Source: a virus
Virus record (IMG/VR): IMGVR_UViG_3300047550_000886
Coordinates: 1-22,761 of that record
Strand: one strand, 5' to 3'
DNA: 22,761 nt
In this document: positions 2 to 22,127 of the stretch, piece after piece
How the letters are laid out: every line of letters begins with the position of its first letter
Position numbering within the stretch: position 1 is the first letter of the stretch
Translations under genes and position numbers: made by a program
The notes under the pieces: generated by a model
The model's database searches: none
The model's input: the letters and a program-made list of their open reading frames with translations, nothing else
What the model was told of the DNA's origin: nothing

Positions 2-1069
2 GCCAACCCGATAGGCAAGATGTTGGTACATGTAGCAAGACGTCCTGGTATTGATGATGAGGCTCGCGGACAGTTTGATGACGTAATCTATGTACAACTA
101 GCCCGTTCTCGTTTTGCTAACTTGGCTATGGAGGCTGCTGAGAAATCTATTCAGGCTCCTCTCGTTGTTCCTCAAGATGTCAATGATATGCCTATGGGTC
201 CAGATGCGATTATCCGCACTGCTACACCACAAGGCGTAGGTCGAGTAAGACTCGATGTACCAGCCGCTGCATTCCAAGAACAAGCAGCGTTACAATCAGA
301 ATTGCGTTTAGGTTCGCGCTACCCAGAAGGTAGAACTGGAACTATAGATGCAAGCATCATCACCGGTCAGGGTGTGCAAGCGTTGCTTGGTGCATTCGAC
401 TCACAAATCAAAGCAGGTCAAACAATTCTTGCTGAGACTTTTGAAGATGTGATGAAACTATGTTTCGAAATGGATCAAATCCTTTTCGATAAAGAAAAGA
501 GCGTCAAGGGTGTCGCGCAAGGTACTCCGTACGAGTTAAAGTACAAACCATCTAAAGACATCAAAGGTGATACCTCGATTGAGGTACGTTACGGTTTGAT
601 GGCAGGACTTGACCCATCGCGCGCCTTGATTTTCTCTCTTCAAGCACTTGGAGCAGATTTAGTTTCCAAGGACTTTATTCGCCGCGAACTTCCGTGGAGC
701 GTTAACGTTTCACTAGAAGAACAACGCATCGAAATTGAAAAGATGCGTGACAATTTATCGGCGGCTATTACCGCAACTGCGCAGGCAATACCAGCAATGG
801 CAGCACAGGGTCAAGACCCTTCGCCATTAATTCAAAAGATTGCTGATGTTATAGACCGGCGTAAGAAGGGGGACAGCATAGAGGCTGCTGCGTTATCAGT
901 GTTTCAACCTGAACCAACGCAGGCAGAGATGACTCCACCAGGTCAACAGGCTCCAGTTGAGCCGACTACCCCGTCCCCGGTCGCTCCTGGATTACCTGCT
1001 GGTGGGGTCCCTCAACAAGGTCAAGCGGCACCAGACTTAGCAACAATTCTGGCTGGTTTAGGCGGATAA
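2..1069 (+). CDS. Portal protein, C-terminal part (5'-truncated by window edge)
   Basis: The reading frame is open from base 2 through the first ATG at 20, so the gene starts upstream of the window and only about 356 C-terminal residues are seen. The role would be the ring at the capsid vertex through which DNA is packaged and ejected. Support: an alpha/beta portal-like body up to about residue 290 of the visible part (for example RYPEGRTGTIDAS, then VMKLCFEMDQILFDK), a helical stretch (LEEQRIEIEKMRDNLSAAI), and a flexible Pro/Gln/Ala/Thr-rich tail ending DLATILAGLGG. Actinophage portals, as I recall them, often end in such a low-complexity tail. Position directly before a candidate maturation protease, scaffold and capsid genes supports the call. 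The N-terminal portion, which would be decisive, is missing. An alternative is another large head-vertex protein. Confidence 0.7.
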   Translation, partial: ANPIGKMLVHVARRPGIDDEARGQFDDVIYVQLARSRFANLAMEAAEKSIQAPLVVPQDVNDMPMGPDAIIRTATPQGVGRVRLDVPAAAFQEQAALQSELRLGSRYPEGRTGTIDASIITGQGVQALLGAFDSQIKAGQTILAETFEDVMKLCFEMDQILFDKEKSVKGVAQGTPYELKYKPSKDIKGDTSIEVRYGLMAGLDPSRALIFSLQALGADLVSKDFIRRELPWSVNVSLEEQRIEIEKMRDNLSAAITATAQAIPAMAAQGQDPSPLIQKIADVIDRRKKGDSIEAAALSVFQPEPTQAEMTPPGQQAPVEPTTPSPVAPGLPAGGVPQQGQAAPDLATILAGLGG

Positions 1070-1087: not shown

Positions 1088-1660
1088 ATGACAGCGATTA
1101 TCGGAATTCAAGGAAAGGGTTGGGCTGTTCTAGCAGCAGACTCTGTAACTACCTATAGCGATAGACCATATGTTGCTAAAGGTTATGAAAAAATATCTAG
1201 AGTTGGTGATTACTTACTAGCAGTTGCCGGAGATGCAACGGCTGGAGATATCCTTAATCATCTATGGCAACCACCTAAACCGGTTAAGACTCAAGACCCG
1301 GATAGGTTCGTGATAGTTAAAGTTCTTCCATCTATAAGGCAAATTCTTACAGAGCATGGGTATGACCCAAATCCAACAAATAAAAAAGATGATGATGACA
1401 ATGGTTGGGATGCCTTAATTTGCTTTAATGGAAAGATATACCAGTTAACTGATGACTACGGATTTATGCGAGACGAAAAAGGTCTCTATGGTATTGGTAG
1501 TGGTGGCGCTCTTGCATTAGGTGCTATTGCTGCAATGGAAAGTGATTTAAAGACTCACACTAAAGCAGCCAGCGCTGCTAAGAGAGCAGTCAACATTGCT
1601 ATTCAGTATAACGTGTGGTGTAGTGGTCCTGTCAATGTCAAGACTCAATTTACCAAGTAG
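1088..1660 (+). CDS. Proteasome beta/HslV-like Ntn-hydrolase, candidate capsid-maturation protease
   Basis: 190 residues, about the length of HslV or a proteasome beta subunit core. After removal of the initiator Met the first residue is Thr (T2 of the ORF), the expected nucleophile. Asp follows at mature position 17 (motif LAADS, D18) and Lys at mature position 34 (YEKIS, K35), matching the Thr1-Asp17-Lys33 layout with one extra residue. The AVAGD strand and the GIGSGG loop (residues 135-140) also fit the fold. Fold and active-site layout are read from sequence; protease activity is inferred. No HslU/ClpX-like ATPase is in the window. A position between portal and scaffold is where phages usually place the head-maturation protease, so it may cleave scaffold, portal or capsid protein. 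A G-run ribosome-binding site (1079-1084) precedes ATG 1088. The second catalytic-region Asp (position 166 in proteasomes) is not obvious. Confidence 0.8.
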   Translation: MTAIIGIQGKGWAVLAADSVTTYSDRPYVAKGYEKISRVGDYLLAVAGDATAGDILNHLWQPPKPVKTQDPDRFVIVKVLPSIRQILTEHGYDPNPTNKKDDDDNGWDALICFNGKIYQLTDDYGFMRDEKGLYGIGSGGALALGAIAAMESDLKTHTKAASAAKRAVNIAIQYNVWCSGPVNVKTQFTK

Positions 1661-1668
1661 GAGATAAA

Positions 1669-2100
1669 ATGAAGCAAGGGATGCGAGTATCAGGAGTTGG
1701 AGAAGGTGCCAAGCGTACTGATTTGGACCGCGCTAGAAAAATTCAAAGAGAAGCAAAGATTCAGAACGCTACCGGTGGTGCTTACAGAGAACGTACTGAA
1801 CTAACAGAACTTGCGCAAGGCGCTTCAACCGATGTACCACCTGTTAATATTCCTGCACCTGCTGCAGTAAACCCATTAGCAAATCTTGGAAGCACAGATA
1901 TCTTTGCACCGACTGCTAGACCAGAAGAGCCAGTATCTGCTGGTGCTGCCGGAAACTCAGACGGTGCTGGTCCTGATGTATTACCAACCCCAGTAACTGC
2001 CCCTGATCAATTAGCAGTGCTTGCTAGAGCAATGTTTGCTGCTGATCCAACCCCACAGAATCGTAGATTACTAGAAGCCTTCATGCAAGAAGGACGTTAA
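1669..2100 (+). CDS. Unrecognised Pro/Ala-rich small structural protein
   Basis: 143 residues that I do not recognise. The first 50 residues are charged and probably helical (basic, with DLDRARKIQREAKIQ). Residues 55-115 are low-complexity Pro/Ala/Thr/Gly, and the last 30 form a short predicted helix (DQLAVLARAMFAADPTPQN...LLEAFMQEG). There is no signal peptide or membrane segment. The start ATG 1669 has an AGGAG ribosome-binding site at 1659-1663 that overlaps the stop of the protease gene. The stop overlaps the start of the giant gene (TAATG), so the two are probably translationally coupled. Location suggests a head or internal-virion accessory protein, possibly a protease substrate or adaptor for the giant protein; both are guesses from context. 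Confidence 0.75.
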   Translation: MKQGMRVSGVGEGAKRTDLDRARKIQREAKIQNATGGAYRERTELTELAQGASTDVPPVNIPAPAAVNPLANLGSTDIFAPTARPEEPVSAGAAGNSDGAGPDVLPTPVTAPDQLAVLARAMFAADPTPQNRRLLEAFMQEGR

Positions 2101-5100
2101 TGGCTCAACTAGGCGCGGATTGGAACAAGTATAAATACACGAGTCTTTTTGATAAGACAAATAACAATCGTTTACTTGCCGATGCCGTAAAAAACCAAGT
2201 ACAAGGTTTAGATCCAAAAGTAACACAGAACTTTAATTCGCTTATAAATAGATTTCCTAACCAAAGCAAAGACTTTTTGCTTAGTGCTGCTAAGATGGGA
2301 CTCAATGCGCAGAGCGAAGGTATTGAAAAACTAGCATCTGTTGATGGGTTAGCACAACTAAAACAAGATTTAACTAACGTAGATAAACTAAAGTCTGTTG
2401 CTTCAGAGAATAAAGGCTTTGTAAATACGGTAAAAGACGCAGTATACGGTGGACTTAAGGGTGCGTCACGAGTTCTTTTTGCTACATTGCAAGCACCATA
2501 TCAAATTCTTAGTGCTTCTGCCCGTAATGCTTACGGATTAGCACAAGGACAAAAAGATTTTAACTTACTTGAGTCAACTAATCTTGGTCAGTTGGCTATG
2601 GCTGCTGGAAGAAGTCTCAAAGAAGGCACGCCAATTGATACAGGTTCTGGATTTTTTATTGGACATGACTCTCAAGTTGCTAAGGCACAGGCTAAAGCCA
2701 TGCAAGCATATGGCAGAATCAATGACCAATCCTTTACAATTGGTAGATTAGCCGTAAATAGCATTGGTGTTAATCCAAATAGTACGCCATATCGCGTCAT
2801 GTCTGGTATTGTTGACGCAGTTTTGTCAATTGGAACTGATCCTTCTGTCTGGGTAGGCCCTGGTAGCGTCACTAAAATTATCAAAGGTGGAAAAGACCTA
2901 CGACTTGCTAAAGAAGCAGCCCAAAGAACTCTAACTGCTAAAGAGGCAAAGCAAATTGAGGCTATCAAAGCAGAAACTGCGCTCGAAGATGCGCGTATGG
3001 CTGAGTTCCATGGTCAAAAGAAAGATGTTATCAGAAAAGTAGATAACAATTATCTTAAAGCCGAAAAGAATCTTAAGAAAACTAAGCAGTCACAAGAACG
3101 TGCTCGCGTAAGAAACACTGGCAAACAGGTAACTTATGGCTTAGAGCGTAAAACTTATGGTAATGCTAAACTTGAAGATCAACTAACTACCGATTCGGTA
3201 GGTAGATTTGTACTAGATACAGTAGAGTCAGGACAAAACCAGCAAGTTATAAATCAGTTGGCTCAAGCCTCTGCTGACTCCTTTAATACTAAAGGTGCAT
3301 TCGTAGGTATGCACTTTGAAGATGTGCCAGAAGCAGGCAAGTTGCATTACTCTGCTTTTGAAGATTCTGAATTTATTGTTGCTATTTCTGATGAGAAGCC
3401 ACTTGATATCTACGATATCACAACTACTTATGAAAATGCTACTGCAACAGAACGTGCTGCAGAGTTAGAGCGCCGTACAGCATTTTTTGAAGAACTGTAC
3501 CGCATTGTAGATGACGAAACTCTACCAGAAGTAACTCGTAATGCTGTAGATGAATTTATCGGGGCAACTACCCCAGGTAATACCCTACAAAAGATGGCTG
3601 TTGATGATATTATCTTCGGTGAGGGTTCTGAATCTGTAGCACAATTGATTAGACGAGCAATCGACGTAGATAACAAAGACTTGCTTGAAATAGTTATGGA
3701 TTCTATCCAAAAGGCATGGAAAGTAGACGGATTCTCTAACATTCGCGCTGTTCATGGTGGCACTGGTGGAGTTGCTGTTACAAACTACAAGATGTTCACT
3801 ACTCGTCTTGCTGGAATTAGCGATACTTTAAGTGAATCACTAGAAGGACGTATTCCACCCGAGTCATTAGGACGTATGTTTGCTAGCCTACGTGATAGTG
3901 ATCAGCAGTTAGCAGAGGCTCAAAAGAACTTTGAGAATGCTCAGACTGCTTATAGCGCTGTTAATCGTGACCTTAAAGAAATTGAAGTACTTCAAGAGTT
4001 CGTATCTAAAGATCCAGAACTACTTGCTCAGATTATTAACGACCCTGAGAATATCGGCATTGCCAAACTTATGGGTCTTGCAGATAACATTAAATCTGGC
4101 GAATACAAGAAAGAATTCTTACGCTCTGAGGTTGGATTACTAGACTCCTTTGGTGGCTCTCTTAAGGGAGATTTAAAGAAGGCCGCTGGATATGTACTTG
4201 GAAAGCGATTTGCTCAAGTAGCAGATATCGTAGCCCGTGAAACCGACTTTAATCGTATGCATCGTTTCTTTGGTCGTAAATTAGATATTGCTATGGTAAA
4301 GGAGTTGGTTGATGCGACAACGCCTGAGCAAGTTATTAGCATATTCCTTCGCCATCTGGCTGCTCCTACAAGTGATCCATCGGTGTATCGTTCAATGGCA
4401 CTTAGGGGAGAAGCCGCTCTTAACTCGCATAATCCGCTTTATAAAATGGTTGCCCCAGTTGCTCGTAAGGCTCTTCCAATTGTCGAAAAAACTGAGCGCA
4501 ATTTTGGTAGATACTTTTCGCGTTCGGTAGTATTACCTCTTGATGACTTAGACCGTCTAATTAACGGTATCGAAGATTGGATGTCATCTGCTGGTATTCC
4601 AAATAACATTATCGAAGATGTAGTAAATCGACTAGCAAAAGCAGATAGCACAGAGATTCGCTCTGGTATTGTATTCCAGGAGATCGAGCGTGCTCAAGTA
4701 ACGATTGCTAGACAGATTGCTCCTGGGGATACTGCAGTAGAAGAGGCCATCAAGAAAACTTTCCGTGCAACTGGTAGACAAAATGCTTTAATTAAACAAT
4801 ATGTTGCTGAAAGACTTCCTACTAACGAAGTACCACAGGTAGCCATGATTAATGGCGAAATGTTTAAGTTTAACCCTGATCAGGCTATATTTGAATATCA
4901 ATTCCTAGACGACGTTGTTCGTTTGCCTGATACTCGTGATATTAAGAGACTTGTTACTAGATATACCAAAAATAAGGCTAGATTTGGTGCGGAACGCGCT
5001 AGAGATGTATTTAATGACACCTTTGGTGACACCTGGAGAACTGCTCAGTTAGCATTCCGTGCTGCTTATATCATCCGTAACATCGGTGAAATGCAGTTCC

Positions 5101-7856
5101 GTCAGTACTTCTCAGGACATGACACCCTATTGAATCACCCGCTTTCATATCTTGCTATGATTGCTGCAGATTCTGAGGGTGGTGCTTTTAGAAAGTTCCT
5201 TGCTAGAAACGCTAGATATTCTAAAGATGTGCTAGGCAATAGCCTATTGGCTAAAGATGTAAAGGCTCAAAAAGCCTTCTCAAAGGGTATTGAGGCTGTT
5301 TTAAACCAAATTGGTAGACAGCATAACTCAAATGATCCACGTTTTGCTTTCATAGGTCGCATATACGAAGCAGTAACATCTGACCAAAAAGGATATTCTT
5401 TAGCCTTAGCAAACACTATTATGAAGGCTCACTCCGATAGCCTTATTCCTTTAGTTGCTGGAGTACGTACAGTAGAAGTACAAGATGATTTCATACGAGC
5501 ACTTATTGCCGGAGAAGGCAAGTATAAGGGGATTCTAAAAACTCTTATAGAGGGTGGTCGAAATGGTGTCGAGCCACAAGAATTTGCTAGGTTGTTCCTA
5601 AAGGATTCGGTTCCAGTAAATGGTGTATACAATCTTGCTCCAGAAAATTTTATAGTCGAAAACGTAAAGAACTTTATATTTGATGTTAACTCTACTGGCT
5701 CGGTAGAAAGATATATTCAAAATGTTACAGGAACCGGTGCAGGTTCCGTGTATATTCGTGACTTACTTGCTTATGGTAAAACTTCGGTAGATGGTGAAGA
5801 TTTACTGGTGCCTAGTTATGGTGCGATAAAAGAAAACATTAATGAAATTACAGATGTAGATACAGCATTTAAAAAGTCTATAGCCAGAATCTTTACAACT
5901 GAAAAGATGCCAAACGCTACGGCAATCGGTCTTCGTGACCAAGCATTTGGTGCTGAAGATATCAAGTACCTTGATGCTGCTGTTAACTGGTTCTTTTCCG
6001 GCGCTACCAAGGCTGAGAACATTGTCAACTTTGCTCCTGAAGCACAGATGGCCTACTGGGACCATGCTGCTAGATATATTAGCATGTTAAATGATAAAGA
6101 TTTATATGACTTATTGCCTATCGCTAAAGAGGCTTTAGAAGGATTTACCATAGGTGGAAAGCCTATGCGTAGACCTATAGCACTGAAGGTTCTTAATGCT
6201 GAGGTTAAAAGACGTAAAAAAGGTAAGTCTGTGACCGATGGAATTACCCGTGAGGAACTTGATTCTATGGCTGGAAAGAAGGCTATAGAATATACCAAGA
6301 ATCTATTCTATGATGCTGCTAGACAGCGCCAATATGCTAACGCATGGAGAGCGGTATTCCCGTTCGCTCAGGCTCAGTTTAACACGCTTTACAAGTGGAC
6401 TCAGTTGATGAAGGATAACCCAATCCAGTTCTATAAACTAGGTCGCGCTTACAATGCCTTAACAAAAGAAGGCTCTAGCGCAATCTATGATGTTACTGGT
6501 GTTGAGTATGATGATAATCAAGGATTCTTCTATCAAGATGAATTTGGTGAGACTAGATTCCGTTATCCACTTGCTGGAAGCATTATAGGAGCGCTTGCGG
6601 GTAAGAACATAGACTCTGCTCAAGCATTACAATTAACAGCCCCTGTACAGGCTCTTAACCTTGCTTTCGGAGCAGTAAATCCAGCGGTGCCAGGAATTGG
6701 ACCTGCTGGTCAGATTCTATACGCTGCTAGTGGTAAGTCAGCCGCATTTGGTCCTGAATGGAACTTTATGCGTCAGATTATCTTCCCATTTGGTGAACCT
6801 CAAGGTATCCAGGATCTAATATTCCCAGCATGGTTGAAAAAGAGTTTCTTGAACTTCATTAACAATGATGCTCAAGTAGAACGTGGTATTAAAGACTGGG
6901 CTTCTTACTTAGCATCAACAGGTGACTATGGTGATAATCCATTAGCAGATGATACTGCTCGTACCGAGTTGTTTAATGATGCTCGTGGTCTTTCTAGATG
7001 GGCAGGATTCTTTACTGCTTTATTCCAGAATATAGCACCTGCTACACCTTCTCAAGAGGTATTTGCTAAAGATAAAGACGGAATGTTCCGTACTCAAGCA
7101 ATGATTTACAATGCTTGGGATCAAGTTATTAAGAAACATCCAGGTGATTATTTTAAAGCAGTAGCAGAATTCTCTGATACTTTTGGTATCAAGAACCTTT
7201 TGATTATCCTAGGTGGTTCTACAAGAGCAGTTCGTGGTACGCAAGATGCCTGGGCATTCTTGAATAACAATCCAGAGGCTGCTGAAAAGTATGCTACTTC
7301 AGAAGCGGATATCGTTCCATACTTCTTCCCTGGTGGGGAAGCGGCTACCGCTTACTATAACTGGCAGAGACAGGCTGGAAGACGCCGTGTTCTTAGCCCA
7401 GAAGAGTTAGAAGAGCAGGCTCAGAACATTGTCTACCAGATGGCTAAGTCTCAGATATCTGAAGAACAAGCCGAGAATGGTTATTCCAATGTTTGGTATA
7501 CAGAAAAAATGATTAAACTCAACGAGCGCTTTGAAGGTGTCCCTACCGTAAGCGTTCGTATTGGTCAAGCAGAAGCAAGAGCCGAGTTAATTGGTAAGGC
7601 TTTACAAGACCCAGCGTTTAAAGATTCGCCTATCTATGAAGAAACTAAAACCTTCTACGATGCCTATCTACAGACAAAGAAATACTTACAAGAGGTTAGA
7701 ACAACTGCTCAACCAGATTTGTCTAGTACATTCTGGTATACGCAAGAAAAATCAAGAGAACTACAAAGCCTTGCTATGCAGTTGATGATAAAGAATCCAG
7801 CATTCTCGCGCATGTATTACGGTGTATTTTCAGGACTGATTGAGACAAAGGAATAA
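2100..7856 (+). CDS. Giant (1918 aa) virion-associated protein, candidate internal/ejection protein
   Basis: A single uninterrupted frame of 1918 codons, about a quarter of the window. It starts at ATG 2100 inside TAATG, with AAGAAGGA at 2087-2094 as ribosome-binding site. Visible parts: a Gly/Ala-rich amphipathic segment near residues 108-150; a charged, probably coiled-coil region about 270-345; a helical motif RAAYIIRNIGEMQFRQY (987-1003); a second aromatic/helical motif AVFPFAQAQFNTLYKW (about 1418-1433), followed by a Gly/Ala hydrophobic stretch near 1487-1500; and a charged C-terminus. The two motifs remind me of very large polyvalent or internal-virion proteins of podovirus-like phages, but I cannot name a family. 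No lysozyme or peptidase catalytic motif was recognised. Size would suit a tape-measure protein, but the location before scaffold and capsid does not. Structural or ejected internal protein is the best inference. Confidence 0.65.
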   Translation: MAQLGADWNKYKYTSLFDKTNNNRLLADAVKNQVQGLDPKVTQNFNSLINRFPNQSKDFLLSAAKMGLNAQSEGIEKLASVDGLAQLKQDLTNVDKLKSVASENKGFVNTVKDAVYGGLKGASRVLFATLQAPYQILSASARNAYGLAQGQKDFNLLESTNLGQLAMAAGRSLKEGTPIDTGSGFFIGHDSQVAKAQAKAMQAYGRINDQSFTIGRLAVNSIGVNPNSTPYRVMSGIVDAVLSIGTDPSVWVGPGSVTKIIKGGKDLRLAKEAAQRTLTAKEAKQIEAIKAETALEDARMAEFHGQKKDVIRKVDNNYLKAEKNLKKTKQSQERARVRNTGKQVTYGLERKTYGNAKLEDQLTTDSVGRFVLDTVESGQNQQVINQLAQASADSFNTKGAFVGMHFEDVPEAGKLHYSAFEDSEFIVAISDEKPLDIYDITTTYENATATERAAELERRTAFFEELYRIVDDETLPEVTRNAVDEFIGATTPGNTLQKMAVDDIIFGEGSESVAQLIRRAIDVDNKDLLEIVMDSIQKAWKVDGFSNIRAVHGGTGGVAVTNYKMFTTRLAGISDTLSESLEGRIPPESLGRMFASLRDSDQQLAEAQKNFENAQTAYSAVNRDLKEIEVLQEFVSKDPELLAQIINDPENIGIAKLMGLADNIKSGEYKKEFLRSEVGLLDSFGGSLKGDLKKAAGYVLGKRFAQVADIVARETDFNRMHRFFGRKLDIAMVKELVDATTPEQVISIFLRHLAAPTSDPSVYRSMALRGEAALNSHNPLYKMVAPVARKALPIVEKTERNFGRYFSRSVVLPLDDLDRLINGIEDWMSSAGIPNNIIEDVVNRLAKADSTEIRSGIVFQEIERAQVTIARQIAPGDTAVEEAIKKTFRATGRQNALIKQYVAERLPTNEVPQVAMINGEMFKFNPDQAIFEYQFLDDVVRLPDTRDIKRLVTRYTKNKARFGAERARDVFNDTFGDTWRTAQLAFRAAYIIRNIGEMQFRQYFSGHDTLLNHPLSYLAMIAADSEGGAFRKFLARNARYSKDVLGNSLLAKDVKAQKAFSKGIEAVLNQIGRQHNSNDPRFAFIGRIYEAVTSDQKGYSLALANTIMKAHSDSLIPLVAGVRTVEVQDDFIRALIAGEGKYKGILKTLIEGGRNGVEPQEFARLFLKDSVPVNGVYNLAPENFIVENVKNFIFDVNSTGSVERYIQNVTGTGAGSVYIRDLLAYGKTSVDGEDLLVPSYGAIKENINEITDVDTAFKKSIARIFTTEKMPNATAIGLRDQAFGAEDIKYLDAAVNWFFSGATKAENIVNFAPEAQMAYWDHAARYISMLNDKDLYDLLPIAKEALEGFTIGGKPMRRPIALKVLNAEVKRRKKGKSVTDGITREELDSMAGKKAIEYTKNLFYDAARQRQYANAWRAVFPFAQAQFNTLYKWTQLMKDNPIQFYKLGRAYNALTKEGSSAIYDVTGVEYDDNQGFFYQDEFGETRFRYPLAGSIIGALAGKNIDSAQALQLTAPVQALNLAFGAVNPAVPGIGPAGQILYAASGKSAAFGPEWNFMRQIIFPFGEPQGIQDLIFPAWLKKSFLNFINNDAQVERGIKDWASYLASTGDYGDNPLADDTARTELFNDARGLSRWAGFFTALFQNIAPATPSQEVFAKDKDGMFRTQAMIYNAWDQVIKKHPGDYFKAVAEFSDTFGIKNLLIILGGSTRAVRGTQDAWAFLNNNPEAAEKYATSEADIVPYFFPGGEAATAYYNWQRQAGRRRVLSPEELEEQAQNIVYQMAKSQISEEQAENGYSNVWYTEKMIKLNERFEGVPTVSVRIGQAEARAELIGKALQDPAFKDSPIYEETKTFYDAYLQTKKYLQEVRTTAQPDLSSTFWYTQEKSRELQSLAMQLMIKNPAFSRMYYGVFSGLIETKE

Positions 7857-10739: not shown

Positions 10740-10857
10740 AATCCCGACACGGACCAACCAGCCCCGTGCGGTGTACAAGACTGGCAGTACGAGCCAATAT
10801 AGACCCCCCGATTTATATTGAGGCGTGCGACAACTACTAATGATGGGAGAGGTTGCT
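10740..10857. promoter_or_regulatory. Structured non-coding gap ahead of the scaffold and capsid genes
   Basis: This 118-base gap is far longer than any other in the window, where most junctions overlap or are under 70 bases. It can fold into two hairpins: CACGG (10748-10752) with CCGTG (10764-10768), and a 9-bp stem of 10795-10803 with 10812-10820 (one G-T pair) whose 8-base loop holds six consecutive C. The scaffold ribosome-binding site GGGAGAGG (10845-10852) is the only G-rich stretch nearby and could pair briefly with the C-rich loop. A promoter, a processing site or a translational control element would all fit. I see no clear sigma-70 promoter pair and no T-tract. All three frames are locally open, so short coding use cannot be excluded. 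Confidence 0.45.
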
Positions 10858-11346
10858 ATGAGCAACAATCGCGATAACTACTGGGATGATGAAGATGAGG
10901 ATGACGATACTGGTTCCGACCAGTACATTCCAACTTCAGATACAGACCTTGTGAAGAAACTTCGTAAGGCACTTAAGGCTGAACAAAGAAAAGCAAAGGA
11001 ACTGGAGTCCTCTCTTGGAGAGTTGACTAAAGCCCAGCGAGAACGCGTACTAAAGGATGTTCTTACATCCAAGGGCGTGAACATGAAGGTAGCAAAATTC
11101 ATACCTACAGACTTGGAGGCTTCGGAAGAAGCAATCAATTCCTGGTTAGACCAGAATGGTGATGTATTCGGCTTTACTGTCGAACAAAAGCCAGCAGTGG
11201 CTGACCGTGATATTGCAAGTCTAAGGCAGATGGATTCTGTTACTCAAGGTGCTCTTGCGCCCGAACGAGCAGATGAATTAAACATGAAGATCGACAACGC
11301 AGAAAGCGCTGACGAACTTCTTGCATTTCTCCGCTCGCAACAGTAA
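10858..11346 (+). CDS. Scaffolding protein
   Basis: 162 residues. Start chosen at ATG 10858 because of GGGAGAGG at 10845-10852; in-frame GTG/ATG codons at 10825, 10840 and 10843 lie upstream or inside that site. The protein is acidic at the N-terminus (run of D/E at residues 10-17), has a charged coiled-coil region (LVKKLRKALKAEQRKAKELESSLGEL, about 30-60), a middle block with KDVLTSKGVN then AKFIPTDLEASEEAI, and a helical C-terminus rich in Ala/Glu. This arrangement, small size and position one gene before the capsid gene match phage scaffolding proteins, which guide capsid assembly and leave the head. The VLTSKGVN...FIPTD block is one I recall from actinophage scaffolds. It is a plausible substrate for the Ntn-hydrolase at 1088; that link is inference. 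Confidence 0.8.
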   Translation: MSNNRDNYWDDEDEDDDTGSDQYIPTSDTDLVKKLRKALKAEQRKAKELESSLGELTKAQRERVLKDVLTSKGVNMKVAKFIPTDLEASEEAINSWLDQNGDVFGFTVEQKPAVADRDIASLRQMDSVTQGALAPERADELNMKIDNAESADELLAFLRSQQ

Positions 11347-11376: not shown

Positions 11377-12327
11377 ATGGCAAACGTCTATTCAAGTACT
11401 ACCGCCCCTGGTGGTACCGCTGGTGGCGCAGGTCTAGTCCAGAAGGCGTACGATCGTCTTCTTGAGTTCGCTCTCCGCTCAGAACCTCTAATCCGTTCTG
11501 TCGCAGATAAGCGTCCTGCTCGCCAAGCAATTCCAGGTTCAACCGTTGTTCTACAACGCTATGTTGACCTAACAGCAGCAACAACTGCACTCACTGAAGA
11601 TACTGACCCAGATTCAGTCGGAATTTCAACTCCGACATCTGTGACCATTACTCTTGCTGAGTACGGTAATGCTGTTCTCGTAACTCGTGCGTTGGAACTC
11701 TTCAGCCTTGCTGATGTAGACCCAGCGATTGCGAACATCATTGCATACAACCTTGCTGATTCTATCGATAAGGTTGCCATGGCAACTCTACGTGCTGGAA
11801 CCAACGTAATCTACGCAGGTTCTACTGCTACCTCAACAGCAACAATTACTGCTGCTGCAACTCTCGCTTCTTCCAACATCCGTCGTGCTGTTGCTAAGTT
11901 GCGTGCAAACAACGCTAAGGGACGTAAGGGCAACCTATACTGGGTCGGTATTCACCCAGAAGTTTCCCATGACCTCCGTGCTGAGACAGGTTCAGCAGGA
12001 TGGCTCATCCCTCACCAATACGGTGCTAACCAGAATGAAATCTGGGCAGGCGAAATTGGTACCTACGAAGGTGCTTACTTCGTTGAGACCAACCGCATGT
12101 ACAACGCGACTGACGGAGCATCCTCTGCTCGCGTATACCGTACAATTGTTTGCGGTCAGCAAGCACTTGCAGAAGCAGTGGCAGAAGAGCCACATGTAGT
12201 CGTCGGACCAGTAGTCGACAAGTTGATGCGTCACCGCCCAATGGGCTGGTACGGCGTACTCGGCTTCGCTCGCTACCGCGAAGAGGCTTTGTACCGCATT
12301 GAAAGCGGTTCATCAATCGCTTCCTAG
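11377..12327 (+). CDS. Major capsid protein (HK97 fold, N4-gp56-like)
   Basis: 316 residues, ATG 11377 with AAGGAG at 11362-11367. Features fitting an HK97-fold capsid subunit: an N-terminal arm (VQKAYDRLLEFALRSEPLI), an extended-loop segment with ALTEDTDPDSVGISTPTSV, a helix-rich P-domain (ANIIAYNLADSIDKVAMATL, then IRRAVAKLRANN) and an A-domain with LYWVGIHPEVSHDLR. The C-terminus is a beta-rich GWYGVLGFARYREEALYRIES. The TALTED...SVTITLAEYGNAVLVT segment is the type seen in the N4-gp56-like capsid family. Codon choice shifts toward C-ending codons relative to neighbours, as expected for the most abundant virion protein. Preceded by the scaffold gene and followed by a strong inverted repeat. 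It would assemble the icosahedral shell. Confidence 0.9.
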   Translation: MANVYSSTTAPGGTAGGAGLVQKAYDRLLEFALRSEPLIRSVADKRPARQAIPGSTVVLQRYVDLTAATTALTEDTDPDSVGISTPTSVTITLAEYGNAVLVTRALELFSLADVDPAIANIIAYNLADSIDKVAMATLRAGTNVIYAGSTATSTATITAAATLASSNIRRAVAKLRANNAKGRKGNLYWVGIHPEVSHDLRAETGSAGWLIPHQYGANQNEIWAGEIGTYEGAYFVETNRMYNATDGASSARVYRTIVCGQQALAEAVAEEPHVVVGPVVDKLMRHRPMGWYGVLGFARYREEALYRIESGSSIAS

Positions 12328-13127: not shown

Positions 13128-13297
13128 TGGCTGTAAAAAAGACTCCCATTAAAAAGTCTAATAAAGCCATTAAATCTGATGGCAAAATGACCACTAAAGA
13201 AATTACAAAGATTTACAATAAAGCCAAGAACAAGAAGGGTAAGTATGACCCAACAAAAATTCCAGGCTTTGATTTTGGGAAAGGTACAGGCAGATGA
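13127..13297 (+). CDS. Tiny Lys-rich basic protein
   Basis: 56 residues. Begins MAVKKTPIKKSNKAIKS, contains MTTKEITKIYNKAKNKKG, and ends in a less charged PGFDFGKGTGR tail. It shares one base with the previous gene (TAATG) and four with the next (ATGA). I do not recognise a named family. Composition and the chain of overlapping starts suggest a member of the same cluster of small basic virion or DNA-associated proteins. Confidence 0.6.
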   Translation: MAVKKTPIKKSNKAIKSDGKMTTKEITKIYNKAKNKKGKYDPTKIPGFDFGKGTGR

Positions 13298-13476
13298 GGA
13301 AGTCAAAGAAACATCCAGGATTCAAAGCAGTACAAAAGAAAATCGCACAACGTCAAGGTGTGTCGATGGAACGTGCTGGTGCAATCCTCGCATCTGGAGC
13401 CCGCAAAGCAAGCAAGTCAGCAGTCAAAGCGAATCCTCGTCTTAAGAGAGTTCGCGGAGTTCAGCGGGGTATGTAG
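13294..13476 (+). CDS. Small basic protein with HPGFKAVQKKIA..GVS.ERAGAILAS motif
   Basis: 60 residues. The segment HPGFKAVQKKIAQRQGVS followed by MERAGAILASGARKASKSA and NPRLKRVRG is a type I recall from many unrelated tailed phages, either free-standing or as a C-terminal tail of another protein. Helix-turn-helix-like spacing (KAVQKKIAQRQGVSMERAGAIL) makes DNA contact possible, but no function is established to my knowledge. Starts inside ATGA of the preceding gene and its stop overlaps a GTG start (TAGTG). Confidence 0.7.
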   Translation: MRKSKKHPGFKAVQKKIAQRQGVSMERAGAILASGARKASKSAVKANPRLKRVRGVQRGM

Positions 13477-13619
13477 TGTCATCTGGACAGTATAAGCCAC
13501 ATCGTGGTTTTAACTCCGTCCAGATTAGGGACGGAAAAGTTATTCGCTTAAATAAGAACGGCACCGTAAGGGCAGTACTTGGAAAGTATGGTGAGTATGG
13601 CAAACAAAAGGGATCCTAG
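13476..13619 (+). CDS. Tiny 47-aa protein, GTG start
   Basis: GTG 13476 overlaps the previous stop by one base, the same TAGTG junction used at 9156 and 14682. The product reads MSSGQYKPHRGFNSVQIRDG, then KVIRLNKNGTVRAVLGKYG and a basic end. A beta-hairpin-like middle (VQIRDGKVIRLNKNGTVRAVL) suggests a small folded domain. No family recognised. Its end overlaps the next gene's start by 23 bases in another frame. Junction style is the main support for calling it real. Confidence 0.5.
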   Translation: MSSGQYKPHRGFNSVQIRDGKVIRLNKNGTVRAVLGKYGEYGKQKGS

Positions 13620-13887
13620 GTTAGCAAGAGCCGGAGTCTCTGGCTTTAATAAGCCAAAACGTACTCCTGATCATCCTAAGAAATCACATATCGTGGTTGC
13701 TAAGGAAGGTAGCCAAGTTAAAACGATTAGGTTTGGCGAACAAGGTGCAAGCACCGCTGGTAAGCCAAAGGCTGGAGAGTCCCAGCGGATGAAGATGAAA
13801 CGCAAGTCCTTTAAGGCTCGTCATCGTCGAAACATTGCAAAAGGAAAAATGAGTGCCGCATATTGGGCAGATAAGGTAAAATGGTAA
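13597..13887 (+). CDS. Small phage protein, RFG...RKSFKARH...AAYWADKVKW type
   Basis: 96 residues from ATG 13597; ATG 13588 or a TTG at 13579 in frame are alternatives. The ribosome-binding site is unclear (GGAAAG at 13581-13586 is 10 bases upstream). The body contains PDHPKKSHIVVAKEGSQVKTIRFGEQG and the strongly basic C-terminus RKSFKARHRRNIAKGKMSAAYW. This RFG plus K-SF-ARH plus AAYWA.KVKW pattern occurs in small phage and viral proteins of unknown function as I remember them. It probably binds nucleic acid or another virion protein; that is inference. Ends at TAA 13885-13887, shared with the next ATG. Confidence 0.7.
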   Translation: MANKRDPRLARAGVSGFNKPKRTPDHPKKSHIVVAKEGSQVKTIRFGEQGASTAGKPKAGESQRMKMKRKSFKARHRRNIAKGKMSAAYWADKVKW

Positions 13888-14285
13888 TGGCAAAGAAATC
13901 AATAAAAGTTTCTCAAAACACTATCGATAAAATTAAAAAAATGGGAATGACTGCGGCTCTCAAAAAAGCCGGGACATCTAAGAATGCAGAGTACATTGAA
14001 GGCATCCGCCGTATGTACGGAGAGCGCCGTTTGAGTGCTGCTAGACCTGCTGCTAAGTCGGCAGATGCTGCTCGCGCAGCAGCGGCTAAAAAACCTGCTG
14101 CTAGAAAAGTAGCAAAGTCTGCTGACGAAGCACGTGCTTCTTACGCAAGTTCAAGACCTGCTGCTAAGCCAGCAGCCACAAAGAAGGCTACAGGCAAAGG
14201 CTTGTTCCCAGGAGTTCTATCCGGTAACTACCAGGGTAAGAAGATTACTCGAGGTAAGGTTGTTGGTAAAGGATTCTTTAAGTAA
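13887..14285 (+). CDS. Histone H1-like Lys/Ala-rich repeat protein
   Basis: 132 residues, start at ATG 13887 inside TAATG; an in-frame ATG two codons upstream (13881) is possible. Residues 1-50 form a compact basic helical region (IKVSQNTIDKIKKMGMTAALKKA...IEGIRRMYGERRL). Residues 50-105 are a low-complexity Ala/Lys/Pro tail with a degenerate repeat (ARPAAKSADAARAA, then ARKVAKSADEARASYASS, then RPAAKPAATKK), like histone H1 tails. A short Gly/Lys C-terminus follows (KITRGKVVGKGFFK). Likely role is DNA condensation or charge neutralisation in the head, or a structural tail; inferred from composition. Confidence 0.65.
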   Translation: MAKKSIKVSQNTIDKIKKMGMTAALKKAGTSKNAEYIEGIRRMYGERRLSAARPAAKSADAARAAAAKKPAARKVAKSADEARASYASSRPAAKPAATKKATGKGLFPGVLSGNYQGKKITRGKVVGKGFFK

Positions 14286-14286
14286 A

Positions 14287-14682
14287 ATGTCATACACTAA
14301 ACCAGGTCTACGTGAATCTATTAAGAACCGCATTCTTGCTGGCTCTAAAGGTGGTAGACCTGGTCAGTGGTCTGCTCGTAAAGCACAACTCGTAGCACAG
14401 GCATATAAGAAAGCCGGTGGTGGTTATACCGGTAGCAAGACAAGTAAACAAAAATCTTTATCTAAATGGACTAAAGAGGATTGGGGCACCAAGTCTGGTA
14501 AACCAAGTACTCAAGGCTCTAAAGCAACTGGCGAAAGATACCTACCCAAGAAGGCTCGTCAGTCATTAACTAAAAAAGAATATGCAGCCACCTCCGCTAA
14601 AAAGCGTCGAGATACTAAGGCTGGAAAACAATTTTCAAAGCAACCAAAGTCAATTGCAAAAAAGACTGCGAGGTATAGATAG
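14287..14682 (+). CDS. Small basic phage protein, DUF5872-like
   Basis: 131 residues from ATG 14287, two bases after the previous stop. The frame extends 51 codons upstream, but that part overlaps the preceding gene in another frame and lacks a start context. Contains GGRPGQWSARKAQLVAQAYKKAGGGY (about residues 22-47), KWTKEDWGTKSGKPS (60-74), GERYLPKKA and the C-terminal KQPKSIAKKTARYR. I associate the KWT.E.W.TKSGK...GERYLPKKA pattern with DUF5872; the domain number is from memory. Function unknown; the basic charge suggests nucleic-acid contact. Confidence 0.75.
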   Translation: MSYTKPGLRESIKNRILAGSKGGRPGQWSARKAQLVAQAYKKAGGGYTGSKTSKQKSLSKWTKEDWGTKSGKPSTQGSKATGERYLPKKARQSLTKKEYAATSAKKRRDTKAGKQFSKQPKSIAKKTARYR

Positions 14683-17708: not shown

Positions 17709-18038
17709 ATGCCAACTACATATAAAGTCCTTGGGCAATCAAACCCATCGGCAACAACAGCAACAACCCTATACACGGTACCGTCAGCAACACAGGCAGT
17801 AGTGTCAACCGTTACAGTATGTAACCAAGCAGCAACTGCTGGCACATACCGAATTGCAGTACGAATTGCTGGTGCAACTCTGGCTGCGAGTCAGTATGTT
17901 GTTTATGATGCCAGCCTACCTGCTAATGCAACTGATACACTAACCCTTGGTTTAACTCTGGGAGCAACAGATGTAGTAACTGTCTATGCTTCTAGTGCTA
18001 ACTTCTCATTCGCAGCATTCGGAAGCGAGTTATCATAA
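17709..18038 (+). CDS. Small beta-rich tail-associated protein
   Basis: 109 residues, ATG 17709 with AAGGAGA about 10 bases upstream. The protein is almost entirely Thr/Ala/Val-rich beta strand: TYKVLGQSNPSATTATTLYTV, then STVTVCNQAATAGTYRIAV and LTLGLTLGATDVVTVYASS. It resembles short jelly-roll proteins I recall beside tail-fibre genes in aquatic phages, possibly a fibre-tip adhesin or cap. No signal peptide. It lies between the long fibre and the three tip proteins, so an accessory of host recognition is the best inference. Confidence 0.7.
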   Translation: MPTTYKVLGQSNPSATTATTLYTVPSATQAVVSTVTVCNQAATAGTYRIAVRIAGATLAASQYVVYDASLPANATDTLTLGLTLGATDVVTVYASSANFSFAAFGSELS

Positions 18039-18039
18039 T

Positions 18040-18714
18040 ATGACAATCGGACGTATACCTTCAGTTGAAGGTGGTATTCAGCCGACCATCTTCGACGCTA
18101 AAGCGGATATACTAACCGCTACCGCGGCTGACACTCCAGCAAGACTAGCAGTTGGTGCTAACGACACCGTTCTTACTGCTGACTCAAGTACTGCTACCGG
18201 ATTAAAGTGGGCTTCAGTATCTAGTGGAGGAATGACTTTACTTTCAACAACCACTTTATCAGGAGCAAGTACCACAGTATCAGGAATAAGCGCTTCTTAT
18301 ACACATTTGTTAATCTTTGTTTACGGTATAACAACCGCTGTAAACTCATATTGCACATTCGACCCAAATGCTTCTTTGGCAAATGCTTATTACCAAAGAG
18401 AAAGAAATACTAGTTCTAGTGCTTGGGAGTTAACTACTCAAGAAAATACTCCCGCCTATATTTGGGCACAAACAAACAATAAAGAAAATAATGCTAATCA
18501 AAGTTCAGTAGTTTGGCTTTACAATTATACTGGCGGAACTAGCATTCCAAAAGATTTTAACATTCAGACTGTTTATAGAGATTCTGGCAATACTTATTAC
18601 GCACAATATTTTAACCGAGGAACTTATTTTAATGAAGCGGCAGTATCTTCAATAAAATTCGCAACCGGTAGCACTTTCTCAACTGGAACTGTAAAAATTT
18701 ATGGGGTGAAATAA
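18040..18714 (+). CDS. Tail-tip/receptor-binding protein 1 (shared module plus jelly-roll-like domain)
   Basis: 224 residues from ATG 18040 (two bases after the previous stop); the frame extends upstream but only through the preceding gene. Residues 19-58 carry the module shared with the proteins at 18932 and 20069 (DAKADILTATAADTPARLAV, then VLTADSSTATGLKW). Residues 70-224 are a beta-rich aromatic domain (ASYTHLLIFVYGI, then CTFDPNASLANAYYQR, NYTGGTSIPKDFNI) ending in TFSTGTVKIYGVK, like the galactose-binding or collar-type domains on phage fibre tips. Role inferred: surface receptor recognition. It is followed with a 1-base overlap by a small helical protein. Confidence 0.7.
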   Translation: MTIGRIPSVEGGIQPTIFDAKADILTATAADTPARLAVGANDTVLTADSSTATGLKWASVSSGGMTLLSTTTLSGASTTVSGISASYTHLLIFVYGITTAVNSYCTFDPNASLANAYYQRERNTSSSAWELTTQENTPAYIWAQTNNKENNANQSSVVWLYNYTGGTSIPKDFNIQTVYRDSGNTYYAQYFNRGTYFNEAAVSSIKFATGSTFSTGTVKIYGVK

Positions 18715-18931: not shown

Positions 18932-19780
18932 ATGGCAACCGGAAGAATAGGGGTTACGCCTACATTCGGAGTTAGATGGTCTAAGGCTCCAGCAGGTGGC
19001 ACCACATCTCTAAGCGGTAATGATGACAACTCAGTCCCACTGGCTTACTCCGTTGGTTATGAGAATGTCTATCGCAATGGTGTGTTGTTATCCCGCGGTA
19101 ATGACTATACGGCAACTAACGGTTCAAGCATTACCCTGGTAGATGCAACCATTGCTGGTGACATCATAGAGGTGTTTGCCAATGTTGCTATACCTTTGAC
19201 TGATACTTACTCTCAGACAGCAGCCAATGCTAAGTTCATAAACAATACTTTGGTAGATGCCAAGGGAGATATAGTAACGGCTACTGCTGCAGATACTCCT
19301 GCCAGACTAGCGGTAGGTGCTAACGATACGGTACTAACTGCTGACTCTTCTACAAGTACTGGTTTGAAGTGGGCTGCGGTTGCTGCCATCCCCGCTAATA
19401 GTTCAGCAACCGTCGCAACAAATCAAACAACTACTTCAACAAGTTATACAGATTTAACGACATCAGGACCTGAAGTTACCGTAACAACAGGAACAAAAGC
19501 GTTAGTAATTGTCACTGCCTATATTGACCATGCTTATGCAGGGGCTGGAGGTTATATGTCTTATGCGGTTAGCGGCGCATCAACCGTTTCGGCTAGTGAT
19601 ACAGTTGCTTTATTTTATCCAATACATAGCCTTAATTACCCACAAGATTTGCGAGCATCTGTCGCAAGTGTTGTAACGTTAACAGCGGGTTCAAATACTT
19701 TTACGGCAAAGTATAGAGTTACCAATGTAGACTCCGTTGGTTTCAAAGACCGCAATATTTTCGTTATTAATTTAGCATAG
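18932..19780 (+). CDS. Tail-tip/receptor-binding protein 2 (attachment domain, shared module, C1q/jelly-roll-like tip)
   Basis: 282 residues, ATG 18932, ribosome-binding site GGAGG at 18918-18922. The N-terminal 95 residues contain VYRNGVLLSRGNDYTATNGS and DIIEVFANVAIP, a type of fibre attachment domain I recall from aquatic phages. The shared module is at residues 109-148 (DAKGDIVTATAADTPARLAV, then VLTADSSTSTGLKW). Residues 150-282 are a beta-rich domain with alternating strands (ATVATNQTTTSTSYTDLTTS, then ALVIVTAYIDHAY, TFTAKYRVTNVDS) suggestive of a C1q or jelly-roll tip. It differs from the tips of proteins 1 and 3, which points to exchangeable specificity. Confidence 0.7.
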   Translation: MATGRIGVTPTFGVRWSKAPAGGTTSLSGNDDNSVPLAYSVGYENVYRNGVLLSRGNDYTATNGSSITLVDATIAGDIIEVFANVAIPLTDTYSQTAANAKFINNTLVDAKGDIVTATAADTPARLAVGANDTVLTADSSTSTGLKWAAVAAIPANSSATVATNQTTTSTSYTDLTTSGPEVTVTTGTKALVIVTAYIDHAYAGAGGYMSYAVSGASTVSASDTVALFYPIHSLNYPQDLRASVASVVTLTAGSNTFTAKYRVTNVDSVGFKDRNIFVINLA

Positions 19781-20068: not shown

Positions 20069-21148
20069 ATGCCAATAACTAAAGCAAGTGGCAATTCAGT
20101 AACGGCAGCAGCCAAGGGTGACTTGGTTGTAGGTAATGCCACTAATGACTCTGGCGTTCTATCCGTCGGTGCTAACAATACAGTCCTCACAGCCGATTCA
20201 TCAACTGCAACGGGATTGAAGTGGTCTGCTCCTGCATCTACTGGTTACACTTGGACAGGTCGAGCAATTTCCGCCAGCAATATTCTAAAAGTTGCTTACA
20301 ACGGTTCATTATTTGTCGCAGGTGGAAGTAGTGGAGTTCTGCTTACATCAACCAATGGCACAACTTGGACAAGCAGGACAAGTGGCTTTGGTTCTAATGG
20401 CGTTTTTGCAATTATTTACAATACTTCCGCCGCATTATGGATTATTGGCGGAGATAATGGAAGTCTCGCTACATCTCCTGACGGAGTAACTTGGACGCTC
20501 CGCACTTCTAATATGAGCACAAATCAAATAAACGATTTTGCGGATTCAGGAAGCACTATTGTCGGAGTTGGTCGCGGTGGTGGTAGCACTAATACTGGCG
20601 GCATAATTTATTCAACCAATGGCACAACTTGGACAAGAAAATCCCAAACCCCGACTATTGGAACAAGTTACAATTCAGTTGTCTATAATGGGACTAACTG
20701 GGTTGTTGGCGCTAATAACAGCACAAATAATTATCTTTATGCTTCCGACCCTTCCAGCACTTGGACAGCAGGTCAAACAGGTAACAACGGAACGGTAACT
20801 TTTATTGCTTGGGATGGGACAAGACACATTATTGTTGAATCCACTGAATACTATTATTCAACAAGCACTACAGTTGGAACGCCTGATTATATTTATAATT
20901 ATAGTAGCCAAACAATTGGCGGAGAAAGCGTAAAGAGAACTACCAGTTACTACAACGGTAGAATTTATCAGGGATATACTTATCTGACTGATACAAGCAC
21001 AACGCCAACTAGCACCAACTACTGGTTGAATCAAGGTCAAAAGAATATTCCGCCTAGTGGTTCTGGTTTAATCCAGCCAACAGCGTATTTTGTTTGTTCG
21101 GCAGGACAAGTTCTTTTTAGTAATTATATTTTATTTACTTCATTCTAA
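20069..21148 (+). CDS. Tail-tip/receptor-binding protein 3 with Asp-box beta-propeller domain
   Basis: 359 residues, ATG 20069, ribosome-binding site GGGAGG at 20054-20059. The shared module is at residues 14-53 (GDLVVGNATNDSGVLS, then NNTVLTADSSTATGLKW). From about 55 onward the repeated S.[DN]G..W boxes (STNGTTW, SPDGVTW, STNGTTW, DPSSTW) with following strands are typical of sialidase/BNR Asp-box beta-propellers. The last quarter is Tyr/Ser/Thr-rich (SYYNGRIYQGYTYL, FVCSAGQVLF). A sugar-binding or sugar-hydrolysing tip is possible; no sialidase catalytic residues were identified, so binding is the safer inference. Confidence 0.7.
   Translation: MPITKASGNSVTAAAKGDLVVGNATNDSGVLSVGANNTVLTADSSTATGLKWSAPASTGYTWTGRAISASNILKVAYNGSLFVAGGSSGVLLTSTNGTTWTSRTSGFGSNGVFAIIYNTSAALWIIGGDNGSLATSPDGVTWTLRTSNMSTNQINDFADSGSTIVGVGRGGGSTNTGGIIYSTNGTTWTRKSQTPTIGTSYNSVVYNGTNWVVGANNSTNNYLYASDPSSTWTAGQTGNNGTVTFIAWDGTRHIIVESTEYYYSTSTTVGTPDYIYNYSSQTIGGESVKRTTSYYNGRIYQGYTYLTDTSTTPTSTNYWLNQGQKNIPPSGSGLIQPTAYFVCSAGQVLFSNYILFTSF
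20348..20637 (+). repeat. Pair of exact 26-base direct repeats inside the propeller gene
   Basis: An identical 26-base stretch, beginning TCAACCAATGG and ending TTGGACAAG, occurs at 20348-20373 and again at 20612-20637 (spacing 264 bases, in the same frame). Both copies encode STNGTTWT, the Asp box. Unlike other repeats in the window, DNA identity is complete here, which fits recent duplication or ongoing recombination between blades. Confidence 0.85.
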
Positions 21149-21365: not shown

Positions 21366-22127
21366 ATGATAAAAGAAACTGAGACAGTAAGTATCGGCTG
21401 GTGCGATAACGGACTAGCCGATGGTAAGTTTGCAGAGGGATTGCTAGGTGTAACCTTGGCAGCCCCTAGCAATGGTATGAAGATTAGCCACAGTGTTCGT
21501 GTGGCTGGTAATCAGATCAGCCGTCAACGCCAAAGACTATTGGACCATTGGTATGACAAGAACTTATCTGACTGGTTACTTTGGATAGATAGCGATATAG
21601 TTCTAAACATAGATGCTTTGTATTTACTATGGCACGCAGCAGACTCTGAGACAGCACCAATAGTGAGCGGTGTTTATTTCATCTCTAAAGAGCCAGAGGG
21701 CACGACAATGCGCCCATTTCCTTGTGTATTCAAAGATTTAGGTAATCACGAGATTCAGTATCTACATCCACTTCCTGAGATGGAACTGGTTGATTGTGAC
21801 TTGGCTGGCTTCGGTATCTTGATGATGCACCGAAGTGTAGTTGAGAAAATGCGTGAGGCTTTGCCTAATGAAGGATTCTTTAATGAGCAAGTCGGCACAG
21901 GTAAAGATGACGAGTTTGTAGGCGAAGATATAATCTTCTTCCGTAAAATGAAGAAGGCAGGCATACAACTTAAGGCACACACTGGTGCTCTAGTCAAACA
22001 CATGAAACGATTTAGTCTTGATTTTGGATATTACGCTCTTTATTGGTCTATGGAGCACATTAAAGATCAGATGAGAGAGCAAGCAGAAAAGAAAAAGCCA
22101 GGGAAACTCTGGACTCCACCAAGATAA
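21366..22127 (+). CDS. GT-A-type glycosyltransferase
   Basis: 253 residues, ATG 21366 with GGGG at 21357-21360. A WIDSDI motif at residues 73-78 is the DxD that binds metal and nucleotide-sugar in GT-A enzymes. Upstream are IGWCDNGLADGKFAEG and GNQISRQRQRLLDHW, and downstream HPLPEMELVDCDLAGFGILM, VGEDIIFFRKMK (G186-E187-D188) and H205/H212 in the HTGALVKHMKRF segment, a His that could complete metal binding. No signal peptide or membrane anchor, so it acts in the host cytoplasm. Encoded among tail genes, it may glycosylate tail or capsid proteins or modify host sugars; substrate is unknown. I recall near relatives in several phage groups. Confidence 0.85.
   Translation: MIKETETVSIGWCDNGLADGKFAEGLLGVTLAAPSNGMKISHSVRVAGNQISRQRQRLLDHWYDKNLSDWLLWIDSDIVLNIDALYLLWHAADSETAPIVSGVYFISKEPEGTTMRPFPCVFKDLGNHEIQYLHPLPEMELVDCDLAGFGILMMHRSVVEKMREALPNEGFFNEQVGTGKDDEFVGEDIIFFRKMKKAGIQLKAHTGALVKHMKRFSLDFGYYALYWSMEHIKDQMREQAEKKKPGKLWTPPR

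Follow-up and report, generated by a model that had tools for sequence, protein, structure and literature searches.

A proteasome-like peptidase gene that alternates with an unrelated small gene behind the portal gene of environmental phages

Introduction

Proteasome homologs carried by phages have been known since 2021, when two groups, PPH and AAH, were reported as phage-borne proteins without a known function (Fuchs, Alva and Lupas 2021, PMC8665760). Both are free of a propeptide and have spread between phages; PPH proteins are about 140 residues long and lack helix H2, and no Actinobacteria-specific phages with AAH were noted in that study. HslV-like, proteasome-like or BPH-like genes have also been mentioned in papers on single phages (PMC7823757, PMC7289586, PMC8953757), and PHROGs contains a family annotated as "peptidase HslV family" (PHROG_1040), which in phages such as DSL-LC01, XacN1, D'Alembert and AAS21 is encoded among early, regulatory or nucleotide-metabolism genes. 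Two further systems offer a comparison: HslV (ClpQ) of HslUV, and BPH, the beta-proteobacterial proteasome homolog (PDB 5ovs/5ovt/5ovu), which lacks a propeptide, has no known partner unfoldase and is described with a long acidic pore loop.

We examined positions 1-22,761 of IMG/VR record IMGVR_UViG_3300047550_000886 (22,761 nt, hereafter the window), where a proteasome-like gene directly follows the portal gene. Prohead proteases (S78/U35, S77/S80 and ClpP-type S14) are likewise encoded near the portal, although their fold and chemistry differ from those of proteasome-like enzymes. A preliminary description of this DNA proposed that the gene encodes an unusual, Thr-dependent head-maturation enzyme.

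Results

The open reading frame at 1088..1660 (+ strand, as are all window features below) encodes a protein of 190 aa that begins M-T, and the residues for which it was singled out are all present: Thr right after the initiator Met (codon 1091..1093), Asp at mature position 17 (1139..1141), and the GIGSGG motif of the Ser129 region (1493..1510; mature 134-139 or 135-140 depending on counting). The Lys that had been placed near position 33 is mature residue 34 (1190..1192), and aligns with proteasome Lys33. Across 122 non-redundant homologs, Thr1, this Lys and Gly47 are invariant (122/122 each) and Asp17 is retained in 121. The HMM search against proteasome families proposed in the preliminary description returned Pfam Proteasome PF00227 at 27.1 bits, above the cut-off of 22.4, and the same profile matched 52 of 63 aligned relatives; PHROG_1040 matched at E 8e-28. 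Family profiles, predicted fold and invariant residues therefore agree on a phage-encoded proteasome/HslV-like Ntn-hydrolase.

An AlphaFold2 (AF2) model built with 63 relatives (pLDDT 89.4, pTM 0.87) has the predicted four-layer alpha-beta-beta-alpha fold, and Foldseek assigned it a probability of 1.00 to BPH, HslV and 20S beta. The best PDB match was BPH 5ovs (E 4e-11, TM 0.75-0.77), followed by HslV and 20S beta; BPH was also the sequence-level PDB match (E 1.5e-6), and many phage proteins were among the Foldseek matches from BFVD. Comparison of the model with HslV, a check suggested at the outset, thus yielded a predicted Ntn-hydrolase fold, with a TM of about 0.67. An acidic loop of about 16-17 residues (1355..1408, including KKDDDDNGWD; net charge median -2 in homologs) follows helix H2, between helix 71-89 and strand 107-113 of the model, at the position of the BPH/HslV pore loop (PMC8665760).

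BPH is accordingly the closest solved structure, although identity is only 20-24%, the BPH gene is bacterial whereas the peptidase is phage-borne, and the ring of the phage enzyme is predicted from its fold. A further difference is that Asp166, the secondary triad or second proton-shuttle residue, is replaced by Asn in the clade of the window. The same replacement in yeast beta5 lowers activity by about 60% (PMC4792962), so the phage enzyme may be weak. HslV shares the fold and GIGSGG, but the score against the HslV equivalog model TIGR03692 is 23.7 where the cut-off is 157.75, and no HslU partner was found: AAA_2 (HslU/ClpX-type) unfoldases were absent from 16 relatives' contigs in searches with positive controls, which extends to these genomes the earlier remark that no HslU-like partner was in view. 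The low equivalog score together with the missing HslU indicates that the peptidase is not HslV. Nor is it PPH as defined, given its length and its helix H2 (71-89). AAH, compared here by its published description, differs in that window-type phages probably infect actinobacteria. PHROG_1040 phages keep Thr1/Asp17/Lys33, but their genes lie elsewhere, as outlined above, and XacN1, J2-1, D'Alembert and AAS21 have Ser in place of Gly47. If "unusual" was meant as unprecedented, the description went too far, since with the homologs of 2021 and an existing PHROGs family the peptidase joins an already described kind.

The protein evolves very slowly. Median dN/dS was 0.098 over 1205 pairs, and neither internal stops nor broken copies were found among 81 peptidase copies; sequence comparison thus indicates that the peptidase is under strong purifying selection and is maintained as a working protein. 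In most genome pairs with pS of 0.65-0.72, where synonymous sites are near saturation, peptidases are 74-85% identical in amino acid sequence, whereas MCP, portal and TerL of the same pairs are mostly about 45-60% identical (exceptions are the portals of the window and G001, at 82%, and the MCPs of the window and G004, at 77%).

The gene order around the peptidase resembles that of Streptomyces Beephvirinae phages. The C-terminal part of the portal (20..1069; phrog_104, E 2e-14), the gene of which runs off the left end of the window, is the protein 82% identical to the G001 portal over the aligned part. Downstream of the peptidase lie a 143-aa protein, the next gene of the late operon and conserved beside the giant protein (1669..2100; phrog_8200, synteny), and a giant protein of 1918 aa (2100..7856), weakly matching phrog_10618 and syntenic with the giant gp9 of Beephvirinae, which by its place and size is probably an internal virion or ejection protein. 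The scaffolding protein (10825..11346; phrog_648 head scaffolding, E 2e-5) is syntenic with the annotated scaffold of phage Dennebes. The location of the peptidase "between portal and scaffold" was therefore right as to the portal, but some 9.2 kb, with ORFs of 143, 1918, 438 and 527 aa, separate the peptidase gene from the downstream scaffold gene. The MCP (11377..12327; N4-gp56 family, TIGR04387, E 2e-39) is 52-54% identical to those of Beephvirinae phages, has no cleavable N-terminal domain when aligned with MCPs of these gene-less phages, and the order portal - small genes - giant protein - scaffold - MCP is common to both. A complete-looking related contig (G001; 41 kb, 127-bp terminal repeat) carries a WhiB regulator gene which, along with the capsid kinship to Streptomyces phages, makes actinobacterial hosts likely; window-type phages probably infect freshwater actinobacteria. 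Actinobacteria usually possess a proteasome of their own.

Several other genes of these phages merit a record. A run of small basic ORFs that are very rich in Lys, Ala and Arg 3' of the capsid gene (13294-14682) possibly encodes DNA-binding virion proteins. Three fibre-like ORFs (17986-18714, 18932-19780 and 20069-21148) have the segment AKGDxVTATAADTPARLAVGANDTVLTADSSTxTGLKW in common, a pattern that suggests domain shuffling among tail fibres. An ORF judged glycosyltransferase-like by eye only (21366-22127) precedes the large tail protein and is 95% identical in G049, a relative without the peptidase gene. In G001, a class-II glutamine amidotransferase-like gene adjoins an Amidoligase_2 gene (L092:1069-3467, - strand); the former is a second Ntn-type enzyme in the same phage, and the two are a possible peptide-tagging pair.

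At least 364 relatives of the 190-aa protein are present in IMG/VR, and their genes occupy three genomic sites. Among the 80 closest relatives, 50 are directly after the portal (site A) and 30 are in an early region, flanked by a divergent 76-aa gene on one side and a Cas4/RecB-like exonuclease gene on the other (site B); at a further 13 loci the gene is two small genes after the MCP (site C). The tree of peptidase proteins needs three location changes among A, B and C, with B having arisen twice. Relative to the window, ct2KA10 has an MCP that is 79% identical and a peptidase that is only 32% identical. Sites A and B are thus filled by quite different versions in different phages, which indicates that the gene has been replaced in place. 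Some site-C peptidases (L154, L171, L176, L180) have C-terminal extensions, up to 241 aa. The single bacterial contig found to carry the gene, which comes from a MAG and has a WhiB-like match close by, is probably phage, and a bacterial origin of the gene was rejected.

In the window, the peptidase gene starts 18 bp past the portal stop and is preceded by a G-rich Shine-Dalgarno-like stretch, a spacing and signal that make late expression plausible in site A and C phages; as both sites fall within the head operon, many members are likely to express the peptidase late, together with the head genes. In an alignment of site-B upstream regions from the closer group, inspection by eye showed a TGnTAtnAT-like element some 30 nt ahead of the gene, suggesting that the peptidase gene there may have its own promoter. 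General promoter scans gave counts at chance level. Site-B upstream regions (e.g., L055:4800-4990) also show the conserved motif GGCGTGTC with an extended -10-like element.

Whether a phage carries the peptidase was assessed by profile searches of assembled contigs, none of which is certified complete by CheckV. Contigs recruited by MCP held exactly one copy in 16 of 20 cases, including 8/8 of those of at least 39 kb, and on this basis the peptidase was taken for a core gene of the clade, a view that was dropped once recruitment by portal revealed an alternative occupant of the slot. G025, the MCP of which is 95% identical to that of the window, lacks the peptidase and has, immediately behind its portal gene, an 85-aa ORF that is unrelated to it. 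Similarly, G049 (36 kb) has no peptidase, while its MCP and tail protein are up to 94% and 90% identical, respectively, to those of the window; both contigs are short of some kilobases. A query with the 85-aa ORF of G025 retrieved 55 loci where this ORF adjoins the portal gene. Profile searches of whole contigs from 13 carriers of the 85-aa ORF detected no proteasome-like gene (0/13), and an MCP 60-91% identical to that of the window was found in 10 of them. Overall, no proteasome-like gene was detected in 22 contigs bearing the 85-aa ORF, near-complete relatives of 38-43 kb included, and no 85-aa ORF in 19 peptidase-carrying genomes.

Classification of 141 portal-recruited slots gave the same picture: 52 contain the peptidase, 73 the 85-aa ORF, 16 something else, and none both. 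Long portal-recruited contigs (n = 18) were evenly divided, with nine that carry the 85-aa ORF and no peptidase, and nine with exactly one peptidase. Slot content switched at least 10 times on the portal tree, and the nearest relative of the window portal, at 95% identity, bears the 85-aa ORF. The peptidase was also absent from both Beephvirinae genomes searched. The 85-aa protein (e.g., L271:9912-10166, - strand; L274-L353) is conserved, with a basic N-terminus, a helical middle and an acidic C-terminus. Searches of Pfam, PHROGs, PADLOC and cultured phages gave no significant match to it, its predicted fold was of low confidence (pLDDT 69), and no PDB match had an E below 0.001. PADLOC returned no defence-gene match for the peptidase either.

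Discussion

The reading we favor, at a probability of about 0.6, is that the gene encodes an accessory, exchangeable, stand-alone proteasome-like peptidase, structurally nearest to BPH, in phages that probably infect freshwater actinobacteria. A BPH-like ring that accepts unfolded chains is suggested by the fold, by the acidic loop where BPH has its pore loop and by the lack of an unfoldase in the 16 contigs; such a ring probably works without an unfoldase of its own. Host methionine aminopeptidase would remove the initiator Met and expose Thr1 as the nucleophile, and the subunits would then form a double ring of the HslV/BPH type that encloses the active sites. Unfolded polypeptides may get through the acidic pore loops with no phage unfoldase involved and be cut by Thr1 with the help of Lys33 and Asp17, an activity suggested by the conservation of these residues. 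In the lineage of the window, the portal operon probably supplies the peptidase, late in infection; in other lineages an early-region site probably does. Inside the infected cell its substrates would be host or phage polypeptides, whether unfolded or specific ones, and it would not be an obligatory head-maturing protease.

Head maturation was the most obvious role, and the one originally proposed: a protease that is packaged or acts on the procapsid and trims scaffold, portal, capsid or the giant internal protein. Sites A and C within the head operon favor it. A search for another clear capsid protease found neither S78 nor ClpP-type enzymes in 24 genomes, which also fits this role, but carriers and non-carriers are alike in this respect; the FlowerPower "peptidase" gp11, considered as a maturation protease, is NlpC/P60. 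As the default reading, however, head maturation was set aside owing to relatives with an empty slot. The peptidase is missing from relatives that share the head operon and have an MCP 91-95% identical to that of the window, so near-identical capsids imply that the same head is made without it, and dispensability in such close relatives also separates it from known prohead proteases. The two Streptomyces Beephvirinae genomes searched, of the same capsid family, lack it as well. Moreover, neither group has an MCP with a cleavable N-terminal domain: the MCP N-terminus is equally short with or without the peptidase, and in alignments the conserved core of the protein begins near residue 20 in carriers and in gene-less Beephvirinae. 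About one in three of the closest relatives have the gene outside the head module, at early site B. In other phages, homologs reside among nucleotide-metabolism genes, and one such phage, D'Alembert, encodes a head maturation protease besides its homolog. Non-carriers could have a protease that went undetected, yet on this evidence a role in head maturation is quite unlikely.

Other readings concern how the peptidase acts and what it is for. It might be coupled to a host unfoldase (e.g., actinobacterial Mpa/ARC, or ClpX/ClpC) and degrade chosen host or phage proteins, as would suit the absence of a phage unfoldase from the 16 contigs, the probable actinobacterial hosts (WhiB in G001, capsid kin in Streptomyces phages) and a very slow evolution that fits a conserved partner. 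No docking motif was identified, however, and the loop resembles that of BPH, for which no unfoldase is known (PMC8665760), leaving this coupling doubtful. The peptidase and the 85-aa protein may instead be alternative answers to one need, such as counter-defence or host takeover, with the small protein perhaps redirecting a protease of the host. That none of the slots and genomes searched has both despite the repeated switches speaks for this, and so does the finding, suggestive but not proof, that carriers with the peptidase at site B or C are also without the 85-aa gene. Recombinational exchange of the slot would by itself yield exclusion at site A, though, and the 85-aa protein has neither a known relative nor a confident fold; we consider a shared need unlikely. 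The functional diversity of family members (PMC8665760), with archaeal connectase, a ligase, as an example, and the Asp166 to Asn change would be compatible with a ligase-like or binding protein rather than a protease. This is very improbable, given that the AF2 model contains helices H1 and H2, which connectase lacks, and that Thr1, Asp17, Lys33 and Gly47 are all retained. A stand-alone, exchangeable peptidase therefore remains our preferred reading.

While phage proteasome homologs as such were known, the complementary distribution of the peptidase and the 85-aa protein is what is new here. Natural presence/absence pairs in near-identical capsid backgrounds remove head maturation as the most obvious role, and allow clean comparisons within this large environmental phage group in the search for the actual role of the peptidase, with the complementary 85-aa gene pointing to what it may be exchanged for. 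Proteasome-like enzymes are now also placed in phages with probable actinobacterial hosts. If true, interchangeable roles, by which a phage brings either a self-compartmentalised peptidase of its own or a small factor with the same job, would account for the two genes never having been found together, at whichever of the three sites the peptidase lies and despite some ten independent switches.
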